Origin: Rhodospirillales bacterium
GTDB lineage: Bacteria; Pseudomonadota; Alphaproteobacteria; UBA828
Length of the DNA stretch: 36,251 bases
Reading direction: 5' to 3'
Assembly (NCBI GenBank): GCA_028820995.1
Contig: JAPPHR010000017.1
Coordinates: forward strand, 27,732-63,982
Shown one piece after another: positions 8,231 through 29,733 of the stretch; positions within the stretch are counted from its first letter, which is position 1, and the number at the start of each line of letters is the position of its first letter. Made by a program: the position numbers and the translations under genes. The notes beneath the pieces were generated by a model that saw only the letters and a list, made by a program, of their open reading frames with translations, did not search any database and was not told where the DNA came from.

Positions 8231-9028
8231 TTAGCGGTCGCCACTCCGGCGGCGCTTGAGCCGCTCCGCGCCGGCGCGCAGGCGGGCCTGCGCCTCGTCT
8301 CCGCTCCAGATCTCGACCTGCCGGGCGATGCGGGTGGGCATCTGCTCCCGCAAGTCGGCGCAGAACTTGCCGAGCCGCATGCGCTTGGATTCCTGGAACG
8401 CGTCCGGTGCGAGGTCGCACAGGAAGAGCAGGCGCTGCCACGCCACCCCTTCGATCTCCGCCTTCGGCCCGGTCTCGTGAACGAGGTTGAGGGCGCGCGC
8501 CTCCTCGGCGCGGACCAGCTTGCCGGTGTAGATCATGTCCGAGGCGACGAAGTCTCCGGCCACGAAGCGCAGAAGCTGATCGCCGTAATAGGGGTTGGGC
8601 ACGCCGAGCAGGATTTCGGGCTTGCCGATCAGCACGCGGCCTGCGGCGGCGTAACGGTAGTCGCAGGCGAGGTAGATGGCCATGCCGCCGCCGATGGCGT
8701 GGCCCTTGATGGCGCCGACGATGGGGAGCGGCGATTCCAGCATGGCCAGGATGAGGCCCGCGAGCGCGTGGAACATCTCTCCGATCTCGGCGCGCGACCG
8801 CGCCAGCGCCCAGTCGAGGTCAAGGCCGTTGCAAAAGAATTTTCGGCCGCCGCAGAGCATCGCGCCCCGGGCATCGCGGTTGGCCTCCTGGACTGCGTTG
8901 GCAAGGTCCCGGATCACGGCCGTCGTCAGCGCGTTGGCGGTGCCGCTGCTCAGGCGGATGCGGAGGCAGCCGTCCTCGCGCTCGCAGAGAATGTTGGCCA
9001 AGACCCTTTCCCTCCTTTTGACGCTCAA
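8231..9028 (-). CDS. Enoyl-CoA hydratase/isomerase (crotonase) family protein
   Basis: 'GAIKGHAIGGGMAIYLACDYRYA' and 'IGKPEILLG' crotonase motifs. Confidence 0.88.
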   Translation of the reverse strand: MSVKRRERVLANILCEREDGCLRIRLSSGTANALTTAVIRDLANAVQEANRDARGAMLCGGRKFFCNGLDLDWALARSRAEIGEMFHALAGLILAMLESPLPIVGAIKGHAIGGGMAIYLACDYRYAAAGRVLIGKPEILLGVPNPYYGDQLLRFVAGDFVASDMIYTGKLVRAEEARALNLVHETGPKAEIEGVAWQRLLFLCDLAPDAFQESKRMRLGKFCADLREQMPTRIARQVEIWSGDEAQARLRAGAERLKRRRSGDR

Positions 9029-9438
9029 CCCCGGCGGGGCCGGAAGCGCGGTAAGGTGAGCGTGTCCGTAACCCGGTCGAACACGACCTCGACGGGCAGG
9101 CCCACCCGCAGTTCATCCGCCGGGCAGTCGACGATGTTCGCGGTCACGCACACGCCCTCCGCAAGCTCGATCTGCGCCACGGCGTAGGGGATATCGGCCT
9201 TGAACGCCGGGAACCAGTCCTTGTGGACCACGGTCCAGGTGGAGACCGTGCCATGGCCGCTCGCCTCCTCCCAGCCGATCCGATCGGAGAAGCAGTCCGG
9301 GCATACCGGGCCGGGCGGCCAGTGCCACGCCCGGCACGCCTTGCAGCGGGGCAGGCGGAGCACGCCCTCGTGCGCGCTCTCCCAGAACCGCGCGTTGTCC
9401 GGGTTGATGCGCGGCGTGGGCTTTTCGTATCCGCTCAT
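9025..9438 (-). CDS. DUF35 / Zn-ribbon OB-fold protein (acyl-CoA-binding partner of a thiolase-like enzyme)
   Basis: CxxC...CxxC ribbon (CKAC...CPDC) and OB-fold-like C-terminus; adjacent to a thiolase-fold gene. Confidence 0.88.
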   Translation of the reverse strand: MSGYEKPTPRINPDNARFWESAHEGVLRLPRCKACRAWHWPPGPVCPDCFSDRIGWEEASGHGTVSTWTVVHKDWFPAFKADIPYAVAQIELAEGVCVTANIVDCPADELRVGLPVEVVFDRVTDTLTLPRFRPRRG

Positions 9439-9457
9439 CTGTCGCCCGTTGGCCGTA

Positions 9458-10636
9458 TCACTTCCGCAGGATCACGGAGTCGCCCCAGGCCGTCGCCCAT
9501 TGCAGCGCGCGGGCATCGGCGATCTGGCGCGGCCCCGCCTCGCCTCGCAGCTGGCGCACCATCTCGCACAGGGAGTTCCAGCCGGCGACATGGGCTTCGG
9601 AGAGGAGGCCGCCCGAGGTGTTGACCGGTAGCGCACCGCCGGGGCCGATGCATCCATCCTGCACCCAGGCCGCAGCCTCCCCCGGCGCGCAGAAGCCGAA
9701 ACGCTCCAGCACGAACAGCACCAGCGGCGAGAAGGCATCGTAGGTATAGAGGCCCTGGATCGCTTCGCGCGGGATGTCGGCCCAGCCGTACACGGCAAGG
9801 TCGCGCGCGGCCGGGCGCGCCGCACGCACGCCGCTCTGCTGATTGATGCCGAGACCCGGCGGCGCGAAGATGAACTCGTCGCGGCCCGCCTTCATGCCCT
9901 GCATTCCGGCGACGTAGACGGGGCGCTGCCGGAGGTCGCGTGCGCGTTCGGCCGAAGTGACCAGCACCACGGCCGCGCCGTCGCTCACGATGCAGCAGTC
10001 GAAGAGCCGGAGCGGGTCCACCACCATGCGCGAGGCCTGGTGATCGGCAATGCTCATGGGCTCCTGCATTACGGCCTTCGGGTTGAGGCGCGCGTGTGCG
10101 CGGAGCGCCACCGGCACCGCAGCCAGCTCGGCGCTGGTCGTGCCGTAGAGCGCCATGTAGCGCTGCATGGCGAGCGCGGCGCCGCCCGCCGGCGCGGTCA
10201 GCCCATAATGCGGCGTCTCCGCATGGGTGCCGCCGGTCTCGCGGTAGCCCTCGAAGTCGTGCGGCCCGCCGAGGATGTCGCGCTCGCGCGTGAAGCTCAG
10301 CACGTTCACGCAGGCGACGACCTCCGCCATGCCGCAGGCCACAGCCATCGCCGCCGTCTGCAGGCTGCCGGTAACGAAGCGGCCGTGGGTCCAGGCCTGG
10401 TTGACGAAACCGATCTCCAGGCCGAAGGCCTGCGCGACCTGGTCGTAGTCGACGCCGAGCGGCCAGCCGATGTGGATGGAGAGGCTGTCGATGTCGCCCC
10501 GTTCGAGCCCGGCGTCGTCAAGCGCCGCTTTGAACGCGGCGGCGGCGAGCGCAAGCTGGCTCTCCGGCAGATGGCGGCCGAACCTGCTGGTGCCGATGCC
10601 GACGATCGCCGCCTTGTCGCGCAGCGCTTCCGTCAT
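9458..10636 (-). CDS. Thiolase-family protein, SCP2/Ltp2-like
   Basis: 'KAAIVGIGTSRFGR' N-terminus; 'YDAFSPLVLFVLERFGFC'; 'LPVNTSGGLLSEAH'. The ATG at 10636 overlaps the upstream stop (ATGA). Confidence 0.88.
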   Translation of the reverse strand: MTEALRDKAAIVGIGTSRFGRHLPESQLALAAAAFKAALDDAGLERGDIDSLSIHIGWPLGVDYDQVAQAFGLEIGFVNQAWTHGRFVTGSLQTAAMAVACGMAEVVACVNVLSFTRERDILGGPHDFEGYRETGGTHAETPHYGLTAPAGGAALAMQRYMALYGTTSAELAAVPVALRAHARLNPKAVMQEPMSIADHQASRMVVDPLRLFDCCIVSDGAAVVLVTSAERARDLRQRPVYVAGMQGMKAGRDEFIFAPPGLGINQQSGVRAARPAARDLAVYGWADIPREAIQGLYTYDAFSPLVLFVLERFGFCAPGEAAAWVQDGCIGPGGALPVNTSGGLLSEAHVAGWNSLCEMVRQLRGEAGPRQIADARALQWATAWGDSVILRK

Positions 10637-12222
10637 CAGGCAGAGTCCGCATCGAAGAACTCGACGAGGCGGGCCTTCTGCAGCTTGCCGGTGGTGGTGA
10701 GGGGCAGGTCGCCGGCGCCGACGAAGCGGTACTCCCGCGGCACCTTGTAGGCGGCCAGGTGCTCGCCGCAACGTGCGATGAGGCTATCCGCCGTGGGCGC
10801 GGCGCCGTCGCGCGGCACGATGACGGCGGCCACCCGCTGGTCGCGTTCGGGGTCCGGCAGGCCGATCACGTAGGCGAGCTCGACCTCCGGCACCTCGGCC
10901 AGCACCGCCTCGACCTCCGCCGGCGAGACGTTGATGCCGCCGGTCTTGATCATCTCCTTGAGCCGCCCGCGGAAGTGGAGGAAGCCCGCGTCGTCGAGCA
11001 GCCCGAGGTCGCCGGTGCGGAACCAGCCGTCGTGAAAGGCCCGTGCGTCCTGTTCCGGGTCCTTGTAGTAGCCCACCGTGACGTAGCCCCGGACGAGGAT
11101 CTCGCCCACGGAGCCGGCAGGCAGCGGCGCCAGGGTCTCGGGGTCGGCGATGCGGATCTCCGTGCCCGGCAGCGCGCGGCCCACGGTGTTCAGGCGCTTC
11201 TCCAGCGGGTCGTCCACGTCGGTGACGTTGGAGTTGCCGTAGGTCTCGGTCAACCCGTAGATGTTGCAGGTCTCGCTCACGCCGAGGTCGATGAGGCGCC
11301 TGATCTGCTCGGGCGAGCCCAGCGTCGCGCCGGCACGGAGCGAGGAGATGTCGCGCGCCGGGCGCTCGGGGTGGCGCTCCAGCGCGTGCACCATGTTGGG
11401 CGTGCCGTAGAAGACGGTGCAGCGCTCGGCCTCGATCAGCCGCAGCGCCTCGCCGGCATCGAAGTGCTCCTGCAGCACGATGCAGCCCGCGTGGGTCATC
11501 ACGGCGAAGAGCGCGTTCTCGCAGCCGAGGCCCCAGAAGAGCGAGACCGCGAGCCAGAGCCTGTCGCCGGGGCGCAGGTGCAGGCGCTCGCCGATGTTCC
11601 ACATGTTCTCGATGAGCGCGTAGTGCTGGAGCTGCACGCCCTTCGGCAGCGCCGTCGTGCCGGAGGTGTAGAGCAGGTAGGCCACGTCTTCGCCGCGCAC
11701 GGCGGCCTGTTCTCGCTCGATCGCCGCATCGTCGACCGTCTCCGCCAGCTCCCACAATGTCTCGAAGCGCCGCGCCGGGTGGTCGGGCGGGCCGCCGACG
11801 CGCACGATCTCGCGGATGCCGGCGAGCGCGTCGCCCTCGCGGCCCAGCGCGGCCAGGGTTTCCAGGTAGTCGTACTTGAGGAAGCGATCGACCGTGATCA
11901 GGAACTTGATATCCGAGTGCCTGAGAACGTGAGCGAGCTCCCGCGCCGTCGCCCAGGTGTTGATGGCGACCATGGTGCCGCCGAGGAGGGTGATCGCGAA
12001 GTCTGCGAGAATCCACTCGGGCCGGTTGCCCATGAGGAGGCCGACCTTGTCGCCCCGGCGAACCCCCAGCGCGTGGAGCCCCTTGGCGAGCCGGCGCACC
12101 TCCTCGCGCAGCGCGCGATAGCTGAGCCGCGTCCCGCCGCCGACCAGCGCCTCATAGTCGGGATATTGAACCGCCAATTCGTCGAGCAGGTCCGGAATCG
12201 TCTTCGCGTCGGGCGGCCGCAT
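10636..12222 (-). CDS. AMP-dependent acyl-CoA synthetase/ligase
   Basis: YLLYTSGTTALPKG P-loop; 'GWFRTGDLG'; 'GRLKEMIKTGG'. Confidence 0.93.
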   Translation of the reverse strand: MRPPDAKTIPDLLDELAVQYPDYEALVGGGTRLSYRALREEVRRLAKGLHALGVRRGDKVGLLMGNRPEWILADFAITLLGGTMVAINTWATARELAHVLRHSDIKFLITVDRFLKYDYLETLAALGREGDALAGIREIVRVGGPPDHPARRFETLWELAETVDDAAIEREQAAVRGEDVAYLLYTSGTTALPKGVQLQHYALIENMWNIGERLHLRPGDRLWLAVSLFWGLGCENALFAVMTHAGCIVLQEHFDAGEALRLIEAERCTVFYGTPNMVHALERHPERPARDISSLRAGATLGSPEQIRRLIDLGVSETCNIYGLTETYGNSNVTDVDDPLEKRLNTVGRALPGTEIRIADPETLAPLPAGSVGEILVRGYVTVGYYKDPEQDARAFHDGWFRTGDLGLLDDAGFLHFRGRLKEMIKTGGINVSPAEVEAVLAEVPEVELAYVIGLPDPERDQRVAAVIVPRDGAAPTADSLIARCGEHLAAYKVPREYRFVGAGDLPLTTTGKLQKARLVEFFDADSA

Positions 12223-12249: not shown

Positions 12250-12978
12250 TCAGGCCCAGCCGCCCGCGAAGGGCATGACGTGGCCGGTGATGAAGTCGCT
12301 CTTGTCGGAGGCGTAGAAGGCCACGAGAGCGGCAACCTCCTCGGGCTTGCCGAGGCGCTTCAACGGGATGTTCCGGGTCATCTTGGCGAGCGTTGCCGGG
12401 TCGCTGACCAGCTCGGGCGGAAAGTACGTCGGGCTCTCGACGTAGTTGGGCGCGATCGCGTTGACCTGGATGTTGTCCCGCCCGAGCTCCTGGGCGAGCG
12501 ATACTGTGAGCGCATTGGTAGCGCCGCGCGCGGTCACGTACATCGAATAGTTCGGCAGCCCCCGCAAGGGCGTCGCCGAGGTGATGAACAGGATCTTTCC
12601 GCTCTTGCGTTCCTTCATTTGCGGCACGACCGCGCGCGCCATCTCGAAGGGAAAGACCACCATCTCTTCGAGCGCCGCCCGCAAGTCGTCCGGGCTCGCC
12701 GTCTCGATGGGCGCGCGGACCGCAGCGCCCGCGTCGTTACAGACGGCCACGTCGACCCGGCCGCAGGCTTGGGTCGCGGCCGAGACGATCTCGGCCGGCG
12801 TTTGTGCGCGGATCACGGTCAAGCCGGGATTGGTCGCGGCAAATTCTTCCGCCGCGTCCGCATCCACCAAGCTGCTATCGTGGCAGACCACTGTCGCCCC
12901 CTGAGCGGCCAGCTCGGCCGCGACGGGCCGACCGACGAAATGCTCCACGTTGGTGATCAGGACGACGCGGTCCTTCAT
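12250..12978 (-). CDS. Putative halohydrin dehalogenase (SDR-derived)
   Basis: T-X4-F-X-G motif (TNVEHFVG) replaces the SDR cofactor motif; S-X12-Y-X3-R (SATPLRGLPNYSMYVTAR) replaces S-Y-K; PNY where canonical SDRs have PG. Confidence 0.75.
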   Translation of the reverse strand: MKDRVVLITNVEHFVGRPVAAELAAQGATVVCHDSSLVDADAAEEFAATNPGLTVIRAQTPAEIVSAATQACGRVDVAVCNDAGAAVRAPIETASPDDLRAALEEMVVFPFEMARAVVPQMKERKSGKILFITSATPLRGLPNYSMYVTARGATNALTVSLAQELGRDNIQVNAIAPNYVESPTYFPPELVSDPATLAKMTRNIPLKRLGKPEEVAALVAFYASDKSDFITGHVMPFAGGWA

Positions 12979-12999: not shown

Positions 13000-14643
13000 T
13001 CAACGAGCGGCCTGCCCGGAGTCGAGCGCGCCGTCCTCTCGATCCTGCGCGATCCTCTCGGGAGAACGCCGAGCCAAATCGCCGTAGCCCGCGCCGCCGC
13101 CGGTGCTCATCACCAGGCGATCGCCCTTCGCCAGCCGGAAGCTCGTCTTGGAACCGAGGTCGATCTTCTCGTTGCCGCGCAATACGCAGGCGAACGCCGC
13201 GCCGCCGTCATCGCCGCCGAAGAGCCCCTCGGGCGGGATCGTGAATCGGTCGGAGTAGGACTGGTACTCGACATCGTCGGCCAGCACTTCGTACACGCGC
13301 CGGATGCCAAGCCCGCCGCAGTTTTCTCCCTTGCCGCCGGAACCCGCCACGAGCGCGTACTCCGCCACGCGGAAGAATTCGTGCTCCATGTCGATGGCTT
13401 CGATGGGGATGTTCGAGCAGTTGGAGAGGGGACTGTCCACCGCATCGCAGCCGTCGCCAACCGCGCTCGCGCCATAGCCGCCGCCGAAAATTTCGAGATA
13501 GATGCCGTAGCCCGCTTCGCCCAGGTGCGACATGCACGTGGCGTGGGTGGTGTCGAAGCCGGCCGCCATCACCTGCTCGGGCACCGCGTCCGCAAGCGCC
13601 TTCATCACTGCGTTGTAAGCGCGGTAGGCAGACAGCATGCGCGCGCGCACCGGCGCGGGTGGGCGCGGATTGAGAAGCGAGCCGTAGGGCGCGGTAACGC
13701 TGATCGGCCGCTTCGCACCCTCGTTGAAGGGGATGTCGGGGCTCGTGAGCACCGACTTGATGCACGAAAGCCCCGCCGCGATGGTCGATGCGAAGGGGCA
13801 GTTCACGTTGGTCCGCACCTGGTCGCAGGTGCCCTCGTAGTCCACCGTGACGGTATCGCCCGCGATCTCCACCCGCGCGCGGACCACCAGCGGCTCGTCG
13901 TTCTCGCCGTCGCTGTCGAGCTGGTCCTGGCCAACGTAGACGCCGTCGGGGGCCGCCGCGATCCCGGCACGCATGCGCTGCTCGACGTAGTCCAGCAGCC
14001 CGGCCATCGCCTCCGTCACCGCGTCTGCGCCGAATTTCTCGCAGAGCTCGATCACACGCCGCGCGCCCACCGCGTTCGCCGCGAACTGCGCGTTGCAGTC
14101 ACCGATCGTCTTCTCGGGCACGCGCACGTTGGCGCGCACCAGGCGCTCGAAGGGGCCGCCGTTCCAGTCGCGGTTCACGTTGTAGCGGCTCGGCGGGAAG
14201 ATGAGACCCTCCTGGTGGACATCGCCGGCCGCCATGTTGAGGCCCGGCGCGCCGCCGCCGAGGTCGAGGTGATGGGCGACGGTCGCGCTGAAGCCGACGA
14301 GCCTCGCGCCGAAGAAGATGGGCGTGAAGATGAAGATGTCGGGGACGTGCTGGCCGCCGTGGTAGGGGTCGTTGTTGATGTAGAAGTCGCCGGGCTCCAG
14401 CGTTTCGGGCGGATAGAGTTCGGCGCAGGGGCGGAAGGTCGTGCCGATCGGCCCGAGCTGCATGGGTATCAGCTCCGCCTGGCTCACCACGTTGCCGCCC
14501 ACGTCGAGCAGCGCGGCGGAGCAGTCGTTGGCCTCCCGCACGATCGGCGAATAGGCCGAGCGCACGAGCTTGATCCCCATTTCCTTCGCGGCCGCGATCA
14601 GCGCCTGGGAAATGATCGCCTGGTCGACCTGGTCGAGCGCCAT
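13000..14643 (-). CDS. hyuB: Hydantoinase B/oxoprolinase family protein
   Basis: 'YSPIVREANDCSAALLDVGGNVVSQAELIP' and 'NDPYHGGQHVPDI' motifs; adjacent to hyuA. Confidence 0.92.
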   Translation of the reverse strand: MALDQVDQAIISQALIAAAKEMGIKLVRSAYSPIVREANDCSAALLDVGGNVVSQAELIPMQLGPIGTTFRPCAELYPPETLEPGDFYINNDPYHGGQHVPDIFIFTPIFFGARLVGFSATVAHHLDLGGGAPGLNMAAGDVHQEGLIFPPSRYNVNRDWNGGPFERLVRANVRVPEKTIGDCNAQFAANAVGARRVIELCEKFGADAVTEAMAGLLDYVEQRMRAGIAAAPDGVYVGQDQLDSDGENDEPLVVRARVEIAGDTVTVDYEGTCDQVRTNVNCPFASTIAAGLSCIKSVLTSPDIPFNEGAKRPISVTAPYGSLLNPRPPAPVRARMLSAYRAYNAVMKALADAVPEQVMAAGFDTTHATCMSHLGEAGYGIYLEIFGGGYGASAVGDGCDAVDSPLSNCSNIPIEAIDMEHEFFRVAEYALVAGSGGKGENCGGLGIRRVYEVLADDVEYQSYSDRFTIPPEGLFGGDDGGAAFACVLRGNEKIDLGSKTSFRLAKGDRLVMSTGGGAGYGDLARRSPERIAQDREDGALDSGQAAR

Positions 14644-14682: not shown

Positions 14683-16704
14683 TCAGCGTGTCAGGATGAC
14701 ATTATGGTGCGCGTCCACGTGCGCGCGCCATCCCGGCGGTACGTAGGCGGTGGACGTCTCGTCGGCGACGAGCAGCGGCCCCTCGCCGGCGCCGGACTCG
14801 AGCAGCGCGCTGCGGTTGAGCCGGCGGGCGGGCCTGCGCGCGCCGCCATCGAAGAGCGTGACAGTCGCTGCGTGCGGGGCGTCGTCCGTGGCTTCGAGCG
14901 CAGGCACGCCAGGCGGCGGCGATGCGATGCCGAGCCGGAAGGAGACGATCTCCGGCCGGTTGGTGCGCGAATCGTCGAACTCGAAGATGCGGTGATGCGC
15001 CTCGTTGAAACGCTCACGCAGCAGTCGAGCGTCCAGGCCCGCAATCTCTTCTTCGCCGAGCGGTATCGGGACTTCGAAGGCCTGTCCCACGTACCGCATC
15101 TCGAGCGTGTGGGTGTAGCGGAGCCCACTCGTGAGCCCGAGTTCCGCAAAGGCGGCCTCGGCGTCCGCGCGCATGGCCGCAAACTGTTCGCGAACGCGCT
15201 TCGCCGCGCCCGCCTCGTCGAGGGCAAACCGCACGGTGCGGCTCTCGTACCGCACGAAGTCCGAGGCGACGAGGCCGAAGGCGGAGAGCACGCCGGCCGC
15301 AGGCGGTATGACGATGGTGGAGATGCCGAGCACGTCGGCGACCCGTGCCGCGTGCAGCGGACCTGCGCCGCCGAAGGGGACGAGCACGTAGTCGCGTGGA
15401 TCCCGGCCCCGCTCCGTCGAGACGAGCTGGATCGCCCGCACGATGTTGTGCTCGGCCAACCGCACCGCGTCGTCGGCGATCTGCTCGGCGCTTCGGCCGA
15501 ATTGCTGCGCCAGTGCGTTGAAGGCGCCGCGGGCGAGCCCGGCATCGACGTCCATGCGCCCGCCGAGGAAGGTATCGGCCAGCACGGTGCCGCGGACGAG
15601 ATGGGCGTCGGTGATCGTCGGCTCCGCGCCGCCGCGCCGGTAGCAGGCGGGTCCCGGCTCGGCGCCGGCCGAGCGCGGGCCGACGCGCAGCATGCCGCCG
15701 TCGTCGCGCCACACGATCGAGCCGCCGCCCGCGCCGACCGTCACGATGTCGAGCACCGGAATTCGGATGGGCAGCCCGTCGATCTCGGCGTCGCTCGTCA
15801 GCACGGGTGTGCCGTCCCGCACCAGGCACACGTCGGTGCTCGTGCCCCCCATGTCGAAGGTGATGAGGTCGCGATAGCCTGAGCGCCCGGCCTGTCGGAT
15901 CGCGCCCATCACGCCCGCCGCCGGCCCCGAGTAGAGCGAGGTGATCGCGTTGCCGGCCATGCCGCGCGCGGGCAGCCGGCCGCCGTTGGACTGCATGAGG
16001 CTGAAGCGGCCCTCGAAGCCCCGGGAGTCGAGCGCCCGCCCGAATTCACCCAGATAGCGGTCTATGACGGGCTGCATGTACGCCGCGAGCACAGTGGTCG
16101 AGGCGCGCTCGTACTCGCGAAACTCGCGGGTCACGTCGCACGAGCAAGTGATGCCGACGTCGGGAAAGCGCTCGGCGATCAGCGCCGCCAAGCGCCGCTC
16201 GTGCGTGGGGTTCGCATAGCTGTTGAGAAAACAAATCGCGACGGACTCGTAGTCGCCGCCCTGCAACGCCTGCACGAGTCGATGCTGCGCTGCCTCTTCA
16301 TCGAGCGCGGCGACCACCTCGCCGCGCGGGCCGACGCGCTCCGGGATTTCGAACGTGTCGCGGCGCGGCACCACGGGCTCTGGCTTGCGGTAATGGATGT
16401 CGTAGATGGAGCGCCGGCTCTGCCGTTGCAGTTCGAGCAGATCGCGGAACCCCTCGGTGGCGAAGAACGCCACGTTCGCGCCCTTGCGCTCGAGAACCGC
16501 GTTGGTCGCCACGGTCGAGCCGTGCACGAGATCGCCGGCGGCCTCCAGCGCCAGACCCGACTGGTCGAGCGCGGCGATGGCCCCGCGGTGCGGTGCCGCC
16601 GGCGTGCTCGGCACCTTGGTGATGCGAACGCCGCCGGCCTCGAACGCGACGAGGTCGGTGAACGTGCCGCCGACCTCGACCCCCACCCTGACCCCGTCGC
16701 TCAT
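14683..16704 (-). CDS. hyuA: Hydantoinase A/oxoprolinase family protein
   Basis: 'VGVEVGGTFTDLVAFE' ATP-binding motif; 'STVATNAVLERKGA'; 'TFDMGGTSTDVCLV'; ATG at 16704. Confidence 0.92.
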   Translation of the reverse strand: MSDGVRVGVEVGGTFTDLVAFEAGGVRITKVPSTPAAPHRGAIAALDQSGLALEAAGDLVHGSTVATNAVLERKGANVAFFATEGFRDLLELQRQSRRSIYDIHYRKPEPVVPRRDTFEIPERVGPRGEVVAALDEEAAQHRLVQALQGGDYESVAICFLNSYANPTHERRLAALIAERFPDVGITCSCDVTREFREYERASTTVLAAYMQPVIDRYLGEFGRALDSRGFEGRFSLMQSNGGRLPARGMAGNAITSLYSGPAAGVMGAIRQAGRSGYRDLITFDMGGTSTDVCLVRDGTPVLTSDAEIDGLPIRIPVLDIVTVGAGGGSIVWRDDGGMLRVGPRSAGAEPGPACYRRGGAEPTITDAHLVRGTVLADTFLGGRMDVDAGLARGAFNALAQQFGRSAEQIADDAVRLAEHNIVRAIQLVSTERGRDPRDYVLVPFGGAGPLHAARVADVLGISTIVIPPAAGVLSAFGLVASDFVRYESRTVRFALDEAGAAKRVREQFAAMRADAEAAFAELGLTSGLRYTHTLEMRYVGQAFEVPIPLGEEEIAGLDARLLRERFNEAHHRIFEFDDSRTNRPEIVSFRLGIASPPPGVPALEATDDAPHAATVTLFDGGARRPARRLNRSALLESGAGEGPLLVADETSTAYVPPGWRAHVDAHHNVILTR

Positions 16705-26818: not shown

Positions 26819-28246
26819 CTAGATCGCGGGCCGCTTGCTGTGCCACGGCTGGGTGGCGGCCTCGAACGCGGCGGACGCGCAGAACACCGCACGATCGTCG
26901 TGGGGCCGGCCCACGATCTGCATGCCGGTCGGCACGCCGTAGGACGAGAAGCCGGTCGGCACGCTCATCACCGGGCACTGGCTCACCTGATTGAAGCCGT
27001 ACGTCGCGATCCAGCCGCCGTAGGCCGAGAGCGGCACCCCGTTGATTCGGAATTCCGGGTCTGCATTGTCATGGTCGGCCTTGACCGCCGGCACCGCATT
27101 CGTCGGGCAGATCAAGATGTCGTGGGACTTGAGGATCGGCTGGAGCTGCTGCCACATCCGGCCACGCGTCGCGTAGCACTGGTAGAGGCGGGCGGCGCTG
27201 AGCCTGAGGCCCCGCTCCACCAGCCTCACGACGAAGGGGTCCATCTCGTACTGCCAGCGGGGCAGGTATTGGCCGACGAGGCCCGCGAAGATACCCTCCC
27301 ACCAGGTCACGCAGACGTCGAGGGCGCCGAAGTCCCAGCCAAGGTCCACCTCCTCCACGGTGCAGCCGAGCTCGCGGAGCACGTCCGCCGCCCGCCGCGT
27401 GTTCTCCTCCACCTCCGGGTCGATCTGGAGGTAGCCCAGGTCCATGGAGAGGGCGACCTTCCAGCCGCGGATGCTGTCGTAGGCCGCTGGCAGCCGGACC
27501 CTGCCCGGCAGGGAGCGGTGGTCCTCCGGGTGCGGGCCGGACATGACGTTCTGCATGAGCGCGGCATCGGCGACGCTGCGGACGATCGGGCCGTAATGCA
27601 GGATGGTCTCGAACGGGTGGTCGCGGTCCAGCGGATTGCGGCCGAAGGGTGGCTTGTAGCCGAATAGGCCGCAGGCCGAGGCCGGGATGCGGATCGAGCC
27701 GCCGCCGTCGGTGCCGTCTGCCAGCGTCGCCATGCCGGCGGCGACCACGGCGCCTGCGCCGCCGGAGGAGCCGCCGGGGGTGTAATCCAGATTCCACGGG
27801 TTACGCGTGACGCCCCAGAGCGGGCTGTGGGTCGCGCCGGAATGGGCGAACTCGGGCGTCGTGGTGCGCAGGTGCATGATGGCGCCCGCGCGCAGCAGCC
27901 GGTCCACCGTCGGCGCCGTGTAGTCGGGGCGGAAGTCCTGAAAGATCTTCGAGCCGAGGGTGGTGATCTCGCCCTTCACCGCGTGGAAGTCCTTGATCGC
28001 GACCGGCACGCCTTCGAGCGCGCGCAGCCGCCCGTCCGTCCGCGCGTACTTGGCCTCGGCCTTCTTCGCCTGCGCCCGCGCCCGGTCGAAATAGTCGTAG
28101 GTGATCGCGTTGAGCTTGGGGTTGACCGACTGGGCGCGCGCGATTTGGGCGTCCATCAGCTCCACTGGCGAGAGCGTGCGTGCCTTGAAGCGCTCCAGCG
28201 CCTCGCTCGCCGAGAGATAGCAAAGCTCCAGGTCCGCCGATGCCAA
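26819..28246 (-). CDS. Amidase (amidase signature family), copy 1
   Basis: Catalytic K in 'VAIKDFHAVKGE'; 'YTPGGSSGGAGAVVAAGM...DGGGSIRIPAS'. Confidence 0.93.
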   Translation of the reverse strand: MASADLELCYLSASEALERFKARTLSPVELMDAQIARAQSVNPKLNAITYDYFDRARAQAKKAEAKYARTDGRLRALEGVPVAIKDFHAVKGEITTLGSKIFQDFRPDYTAPTVDRLLRAGAIMHLRTTTPEFAHSGATHSPLWGVTRNPWNLDYTPGGSSGGAGAVVAAGMATLADGTDGGGSIRIPASACGLFGYKPPFGRNPLDRDHPFETILHYGPIVRSVADAALMQNVMSGPHPEDHRSLPGRVRLPAAYDSIRGWKVALSMDLGYLQIDPEVEENTRRAADVLRELGCTVEEVDLGWDFGALDVCVTWWEGIFAGLVGQYLPRWQYEMDPFVVRLVERGLRLSAARLYQCYATRGRMWQQLQPILKSHDILICPTNAVPAVKADHDNADPEFRINGVPLSAYGGWIATYGFNQVSQCPVMSVPTGFSSYGVPTGMQIVGRPHDDRAVFCASAAFEAATQPWHSKRPAI

Positions 28247-28305: not shown

Positions 28306-29733
28306 CTAGATCGCCGGCCGCTTGCTACGCCAGGGCTGGGTCGCCCCCTCGAAGGCGGCGGCGGCGCGGAACACGCTCAGATCGTCGTAGGGCCGGCCCA
28401 CGATCTGCATGCCGGTCGGCACGCCGTAGGATGAAAAGCCGGTTGGCACGCTCATCGCCGGGCACTGGCTCAGCAGGTTGAAGGGGTTGGTGCAGATCCA
28501 GCCGACATAGGCCGGCAGGCGGACCCCGTTGATCTCGAAATTGGGATCCGCGTCGTCGTGGTCGGCCTTGACCGCTGGCACGGCGAGCGTCGGGCAGATC
28601 AGGATGTCGTGGGTCTTGAGGATCGGCTGCAGCTGCTGCCACATCCAGCCACGGAACACCTGGCACTGGTAGAGCCGGGCAGCGCTGTGGCCCATGCCAG
28701 CCTCGAGCAGCCTCACGACGAAGGGGTCCATCTCGTAGCGCCAGCGGGGCAGCAGGTCGCCGGCGATGGCGGCAAACAGACCCTCCCACCAGGTCATCCA
28801 GCAGTCGAGGACGCCGAAGTTCCAGCCGACATCGACCTCTTCGACCTCGCAACCCAAGTCGCGCAGTATGTCGGCCGCGCGCCGCGTGTTCTCCTGCACC
28901 TCCGGGTCGATCTGGAAGTAGCCCAGGTCCATGGAGAAGGCGACCTTCCAGCCCCGGATGTCGTCGTAGGTCGCGGGCAGGCGCACCTTGTTCGGCAGAG
29001 TGCAGATGTCGTCCGGATGGGGGCCTGACATGACGTTCTGCATCAGTGCGGCATCGGCCACGCTGCGGACCATGGGGCCGTAGTGAAGGATCGTCTCCAG
29101 CGGATGGTCGCGGTCCAGCGGGTTGCGGCCGAAGGGCGGCTTGTAGCCGAAGATTCCGCAGGCGGATGACGGAATGCGGATCGAGCCGCCGCCGTCGGTG
29201 CCGTCGGCGAGCGTGGTCATGCCACCGGCCACCGCTGCGCCCGCGCCGCCCGAGGAGCCGCCGGAGGTGTATTCCAGGTTCCAGGGGTTGGGCGTGATGC
29301 CCCAGAGCGGGCTGTGCGTCGCGCCGGAATAGGCGAACTCCGGCGACGTCGTGCGCATGTGCATGATGGCGCCGGCGCGCAACAGCCGGTCCACCGTCGC
29401 TGCCGTGTAGTCGGGGCGAAAATCCTCGAAGATCTTGGAGCCAAAGGTCGTGATCTCGCCCTTGACCGGATGGAAGTCCTTGATCGCGACCGTCACCCCT
29501 TCGAGCGCACGCAACCGGCCGTCGGTCTTGGCGTACTTGGCCTCGGCCTTCTTCGCCTGCTCGCGCGCGCGGTCGAAGAAATCGTAGGTGATGGCGTTGA
29601 CCTTGGGGTTGATCGCCTGCGCGCGCGCGATCTGCGCGTCCAGAAGCTCGACCGGCGAGAGCGTCCGCGCCTTGAAGCGCTCAAGCGCCTCGCTTGCGGT
29701 CAGATAGCAAAGTTCGAGATCCGCCGTTGCCAT
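28306..29733 (-). CDS. Amidase (amidase signature family), copy 2
   Basis: Same length (475 aa) and near-colinear sequence with copy 1; 'VAIKDFHPVKGE', 'YTSGGSSGGAGAAVAGGM'. Confidence 0.93.
   Translation of the reverse strand: MATADLELCYLTASEALERFKARTLSPVELLDAQIARAQAINPKVNAITYDFFDRAREQAKKAEAKYAKTDGRLRALEGVTVAIKDFHPVKGEITTFGSKIFEDFRPDYTAATVDRLLRAGAIMHMRTTSPEFAYSGATHSPLWGITPNPWNLEYTSGGSSGGAGAAVAGGMTTLADGTDGGGSIRIPSSACGIFGYKPPFGRNPLDRDHPLETILHYGPMVRSVADAALMQNVMSGPHPDDICTLPNKVRLPATYDDIRGWKVAFSMDLGYFQIDPEVQENTRRAADILRDLGCEVEEVDVGWNFGVLDCWMTWWEGLFAAIAGDLLPRWRYEMDPFVVRLLEAGMGHSAARLYQCQVFRGWMWQQLQPILKTHDILICPTLAVPAVKADHDDADPNFEINGVRLPAYVGWICTNPFNLLSQCPAMSVPTGFSSYGVPTGMQIVGRPYDDLSVFRAAAAFEGATQPWRSKRPAI

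Follow-up and report, generated by a model that had tools for sequence, protein, structure and literature searches.

The window analysed here, a stretch of 36,251 nucleotides from a Rhodospirillales bacterium, carries on one strand genes for HyuA- and HyuB-type subunits, a protein of the halohydrin dehalogenase (HHDH) family, an acyl-CoA synthetase, a thiolase, a DUF35-like protein and a relative of enoyl-CoA hydratase, in that order (Table 1). HHDHs convert halogen-bearing alcohols to epoxides with loss of the halide and find use in industrial synthesis. The HHDH gene encodes a protein of 242 aa (P0002), starting with an ATG at 12978 and ending with a TGA at 12252-12250; the first-pass annotation had given its position without a strand. 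It is probably co-transcribed with its neighbours in the window, since the genes lie on the same strand with gaps of 21-27 nt, the HyuB-type gene being 21 nt upstream. The curated models nearest to HyuA and HyuB are those of caprolactamase alpha and beta, with scores far under their cut-offs. Elsewhere in the window, two adjacent amidase-like genes on the minus strand (26819-28246 and 28306-29733) share 82% identity and represent a tandem duplication.

Table 1. Genes and sequence features at the HHDH locus (window coordinates)
Feature	Position	Strand	Basis
Enoyl-CoA hydratase family	8231-9001	(-)	family/sequence evidence
DUF35/OB-fold-like partner	9025-9438	(-)	named from position and sequence
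SCP-x-type thiolase	9458-10639	(-)	family/sequence evidence
Acyl-CoA synthetase, 27 nt downstream of HHDH	10636..12222	(-)	NCBIfam and PDB matches
Halohydrin dehalogenase family protein, P0002	12250..12978	(-)	ORF, phmmer against PDB, tree, AlphaFold2 and Foldseek
P177-N178-Y179 pocket segment	12442..12450	(-)	alignment and residue counts
Motif 2, S134-x12-Y147-x3-R151	12526..12579	(-)	sequence; conservation in 57 other distinct HHDH-type sequences
Motif 1, T9-NVEH-F14-V-G16	12931..12954	(-)	sequence; definition from PMC11976700, PMC4989007
HyuB-type hydantoinase/oxoprolinase subunit	13000..14643	(-)	PDB 7hk5 N-methylhydantoinase 272 bits; CapB model 204 bits, cut-off 1000
HyuA-type subunit, link not conserved	14683..16704	(-)	CapA model 460 bits, cut-off 1000

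General family models describe P0002 as a short-chain dehydrogenase (SDR), as the first-pass annotation had anticipated. Pfam returns adh_short_C2 (1.3e-40), and none of the NCBIfam models among the best 25 of 215 families matched scores above its own cut-off. The same annotation nevertheless proposed that the protein belongs to the HHDH family on the strength of two signatures, both of which are present. Residues 9-16 read TNVEHFVG, in agreement with the HHDH pattern T-x4-F/Y-x-G in its T-x4-F-x-G form, and residues 134-151, SATPLRGLPNYSMYVTAR, agree with S-x12-Y-x3-R. In known HHDHs, motif 1 takes the place of the glycine-rich NAD(P) motif of SDRs and lines the pocket for the halide or nucleophile (PMC11976700, PMC4989007). 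The Ser, Tyr and Arg of motif 2 form the HHDH catalytic triad, the Lys of SDRs being replaced by Arg. The classical SDR pattern, T-G/A-x3-G/A-x-G together with Y-x3-K, is broken in P0002 at both parts, with F14 occupying the position of a small residue and R151 that of the Lys. Neither can the coincidence of the two HHDH motifs be called common: none of about 60 fetched SDR-type homologues carries both, while nearly all have Y-x3-K and most a TGxxxGxG-like glycine motif. At the level of sequence, the motif match thus exceeds chance, and we infer that P0002 would have no usable NAD(P) site.

A third likeness had been pointed out in the first-pass annotation, namely a PNY segment at the position where SDRs carry P-G. 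P177-N178-Y179 indeed aligns with P175-N176-Y177 of HheC from Agrobacterium radiobacter AD1, and is not to be confused with a second, unrelated PNY at residues 142-144 inside motif 2. In the phmmer alignment to the PDB, CHDSS and MKERKSGKILFITSATP of P0002 align to CHDES and MKKRKSGHIIFITSATP of HheC, bearing out the proposed resemblance. The correspondence runs at a constant offset of 2, the P0002 residues matching T7/F12/G14, S132/Y145/R149 and P175-N176-Y177 of HheC (HheC numbering partly from PMC11976700).

Comparison with solved structures points the same way. In a phmmer search of the PDB, 6a41 scores best at 249 bits, followed by HheC entries (169-182 bits) and HheA entries (146-152 bits); the first NAD(P)-dependent SDR, a FabG, comes in at 100 bits after further HHDH entries. 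Over the full length, P0002 is 50% identical to 6a41, 44% to HheC and 35% to HheA2. An AlphaFold2 model built from 41 sequences (mean pLDDT 95.8, pTM 0.92), a check that the first-pass annotation had suggested, is nearest by Foldseek to 6a41 (TM 0.96, rmsd 1.3), then to HheC (TM 0.94-0.95, rmsd 1.3-1.5) and HheA (TM 0.93, rmsd 1.6-1.7), ahead of any NAD(P) enzyme. The NAD(P)-dependent SDRs listed reach TM 0.84-0.90 with rmsd of at least 2.1, the first being the FabG 4nbu (TM 0.87, rmsd 2.5). The predicted fold is therefore closest to that of 6a41, HheC and HheA, and the residues of the putative halide pocket are kept.

A maximum likelihood tree of 73 proteins (IQ-TREE, LG+C20; the HheB row taken from PDB letters, and HheE, HheF and HheG references left out) separates 16 SDRs from 57 HHDH-type proteins with support of 100/100. 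The first-pass annotation had named a place among NAD(P)-dependent SDRs as evidence that would speak against its proposal; P0002 instead falls on the HHDH side. Within that side, HheB, HheD2 (7b73) and HheD8 (8xxb) form one clade (100/99), and the other branch (96/82) unites P0002, 6a41, HheC, HheA2 and 47 more sequences, nearly all of them alphaproteobacterial, with L126 as the outermost row. The order within this A/C-type branch, drawn in a tree lacking the E-G references, is poorly resolved and HheC forms a long branch, and for these reasons we assign P0002 to neither subtype A nor subtype C.

That P0002 is an NAD(P)-dependent SDR with HHDH-like letters by chance would fit the general models, which say adh_short_C2 or SDR, and a fold that is common to SDRs. 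However, this explanation is rejected by motifs, tree and structure together: T-x4-F-x-G stands in place of the glycine-rich motif and Arg in place of Lys, the split in the tree has full support, and the best solved relatives are all dehalogenases, so that we regard it as highly improbable. Since motifs, identities, the 100/100 tree and the AlphaFold2/Foldseek ranking agree, the family assignment is well supported: judged by sequence and predicted structure, P0002 is a genuine member of the HHDH family and not an ordinary dehydrogenase, as had been proposed at the outset.

The known enzymes resemble P0002 to different degrees. The closest, 6a41 (244 aa, named "dehalogenation enzyme" by its depositors), shares both motifs and 50-51% full-length identity; in contrast to P0002, it sits in a well-supported subclade of its own and has Ser at the position of Pro177, with the following N-Y kept. 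A search of the available literature found no paper on it, and nothing further on the physiology of HHDHs came to light there. HheC (PDB 1pwx and others) shares T-x4-F-x-G, the S/Y/R triad and the PNY segment, but Trp249 of HheC belongs to a C-terminal extension (PMC4989007) that P0002, ending in W241-A242, lacks. HheA and HheA2 (PDB 4z9f, 1zmo) also have both motifs and stand in the same branch as P0002, although they are distant from it, their motif 1 being THARHFAG. HheB, HheD2 and HheD8 (PDB 4zd6, 7b73, 8xxb) have both motifs and the fold in common with P0002 but differ in their separate clade, in a Gln in place of Pro177 and in an N-terminal part left unaligned by phmmer.

Residues of the proposed active site are strongly conserved across 57 distinct HHDH-type sequences other than P0002. 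S134 is invariant, and each of Y147, R151, N178 and Y185 is replaced in no more than one readable sequence. Tyr or Phe stands at position 179, and position 177 is Pro in most sequences, Ser or Ala in some and Gln in the HheD-like rows. Two SDR rows included as contrast have Lys for R151 and Gly for N178. Natural variation is found in motif 1. A clade of HHDH-type proteins from L183-L188 (genus g46, family f41; also L029 and L031), about 57% identical to P0002, shows Trp for the Phe/Tyr of the motif (T-x4-W-x-G) in each of the six sampled species, and Pro177 is replaced there by Ser or Ala. The motif-1 threonine is naturally replaced by Ser in L024, L108 and L112, by Met in L017 and L018 and by Ile in L126, all otherwise HHDH-type. 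In addition, an HHDH-type protein at L020:1468-2226, 38% identical, has Pro at the position of the catalytic Tyr147 with Ser134 and Arg151 kept; to judge from this substitution, it is possibly inactive or altered. Motif-based mining for HHDH sequences goes back to 2014 (PMC4989007). Variants with Trp for Phe/Tyr, or with Ser, Met or Ile for Thr, would escape the published motif filter.

The family had been described in the first-pass annotation as small, a view that the sampled genomes do not bear out for this class. A strong match (E<=1e-38) occurs in 43 of 385 genomes of the class (about 11%), and those matches that were fetched from the list and checked proved to be of HHDH type. A profile search of a phylum sample gave matches in 7 of 399 genomes at E<=1e-45, two of the seven being SDRs on inspection. 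The HHDH lineage is thus fairly common in Alphaproteobacteria. Near relatives in public genomes come from uncultured Alphaproteobacteria, Rhodospirillales and a bin labelled Defluviicoccus. Within the genus, the gene is present at 87-89% identity in the window genome and in G001, G002, G005 and G007; no copy turned up in G003 (62% complete), G004 (93%) or G006 (99%). The genome itself yields 46 matches to P0002, and the seven next-best that were fetched are all Y-x3-K SDRs at 31-34% identity. A phage or plasmid origin of P0002 was considered and rejected: viral contigs gave only two distant SDR-like matches (28% identity), and the best-ranked plasmid matches were mostly SDRs, with one HheA-type enzyme.

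The first-pass annotation had regarded the location of this copy in a defined CoA-catabolic operon as informative about function. The arrangement could mean that the HHDH serves the adjacent genes, forming or opening an epoxide or halohydrin intermediate that then passes through ATP-dependent ring opening or carboxylation of the HyuAB type, ligation to CoA and thiolysis; the single strand, the short gaps and a layout common to the window and G007 would fit such a pathway. However, among the congeners compared, HyuAB-HHDH-CoA ligase occurs only in the window and G007. G002 and G005 have the CoA ligase-thiolase-DUF35-enoyl-CoA hydratase block, the HyuAB orthologues (90-93%) and the HHDH gene at three separate loci, the HHDH gene there being located about 0.1-0.2 kb upstream of a gene that on sequence inspection resembles a Rieske oxygenase. 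No HHDH was found in G003, which carries the CoA-ligase block, or in G004 and G006, which carry HyuAB along with most of that block. The acyl-CoA synthetase thus has orthologues throughout G002-G006 without an adjoining HHDH, the thiolase-DUF35-enoyl-CoA hydratase block (8231..10639) is largely kept with the CoA ligase across the genus, and the HyuB-type gene occupies a separate locus in congeners, its link to the HHDH gene not being conserved.

Alignment of the DNA at the junctions also argues against a pathway shared with the adjacent genes. Similarity to congeners stops, for HyuB, close to its own stop codon and starts, for the CoA ligase, just before its own start, and the similarity of the HHDH gene to G001, G002 and G005 extends from its start codon to its stop codon or to within 16 nt of it. 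In more distant relatives, the neighbours vary by family, with only a few, generic groups (SDRs, an amidase and some pairs) recurring from one family of the class to another. Reading the function from the operon was accordingly rejected as weak after the congener comparison, and we consider a dedicated step in this pathway quite unlikely. Given the changing neighbours and the sharp breaks in similarity, the HHDH gene behaves as a self-contained unit, making the operon poor evidence for its role; being self-contained, it probably has a role independent of the adjacent HyuAB and CoA-ligase genes. HHDH function should therefore not be read from the neighbouring operon. As to other sites in the class, orthologues in L024 and L135 lie downstream of sfsA-like and methionine aminopeptidase-like genes (in L135 also a radC-like one), as named from their sequences, and this is perhaps an older location of the gene. 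HyuB-type (hydantoinase B/oxoprolinase) genes are themselves greatly expanded across G001-G007, each of the six better-assembled genomes having 20-29 matches and G003 having 9.

Taken together, we favour, with a probability of roughly 0.9, the reading that P0002 is a cofactor-independent HHDH-family member of the HheC/HheA/6a41 branch, with HheC-like chemistry and a role apart from its neighbours. The reaction would most likely be the reversible conversion of a halohydrin to an epoxide without a nucleotide cofactor. On the analogy of HheC and its solved complexes, Arg151 would lower the pKa of Tyr147, which would deprotonate the hydroxyl group of a vicinal halohydrin bound by Ser134; the alkoxide would then expel the neighbouring halide to form the epoxide. 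The expelled halide would enter a pocket formed by motif 1 (Phe14, Gly16) and the P177-N178-Y179 / Y185-F186 loop; in the reverse direction, a small anion would open the epoxide. Catalysis, pocket, tetrameric assembly and reversibility are all presumed from this analogy. A possible role would be the removal or interconversion of reactive halohydrins or epoxides.

An epoxide hydrolase gene belongs to the HheC host operon (PMC11976700) and adjoins the plasmid-borne HheA gene of Microbacterium, whereas none lies beside the P0002 gene. Epoxide hydrolases of the EHN type, the only type searched for, were not found in the genome (67% complete) or in six congeners, so that none of these seven genomes of the genus shows the usual downstream step, and the genome of P0002 gave no match to a tryptophan-halogenase partner. 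An operon with an epoxide hydrolase is known for just two HHDH genes, and other physiological functions are considered possible (PMC4989007); the halohydrins and epoxides tested are probably not the natural substrates of HheC (PMC11976700). These observations, together with the broad presence in the class, lend some substance to the idea that the native reaction of this HHDH-fold protein is a different addition or elimination, with a beta-substituted alcohol or an epoxide as substrate, activity on halohydrins being promiscuous. The residues of the halide pocket are conserved, however, and nothing positive speaks for any alternative reaction; we therefore treat the idea as a tentative possibility, appreciably less probable than HheC-like dehalogenation.

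P0002 is thus a confident new member of the known HHDH family, about 50% identical to its nearest solved relative. Two further results are of use: the gene's link to the operon proved not to be conserved, and its relatives carry natural variants of motif 1. A wider proposal, which we think unlikely, is that this alphaproteobacterial lineage uses HHDH-fold enzymes, encoded by a self-contained gene with changing neighbours, for a native reaction other than the dehalogenation of man-made halohydrins. If true, the joining of the gene to the HyuAB/CoA-ligase pathway in the window and in G007 would make the natural substrate testable.
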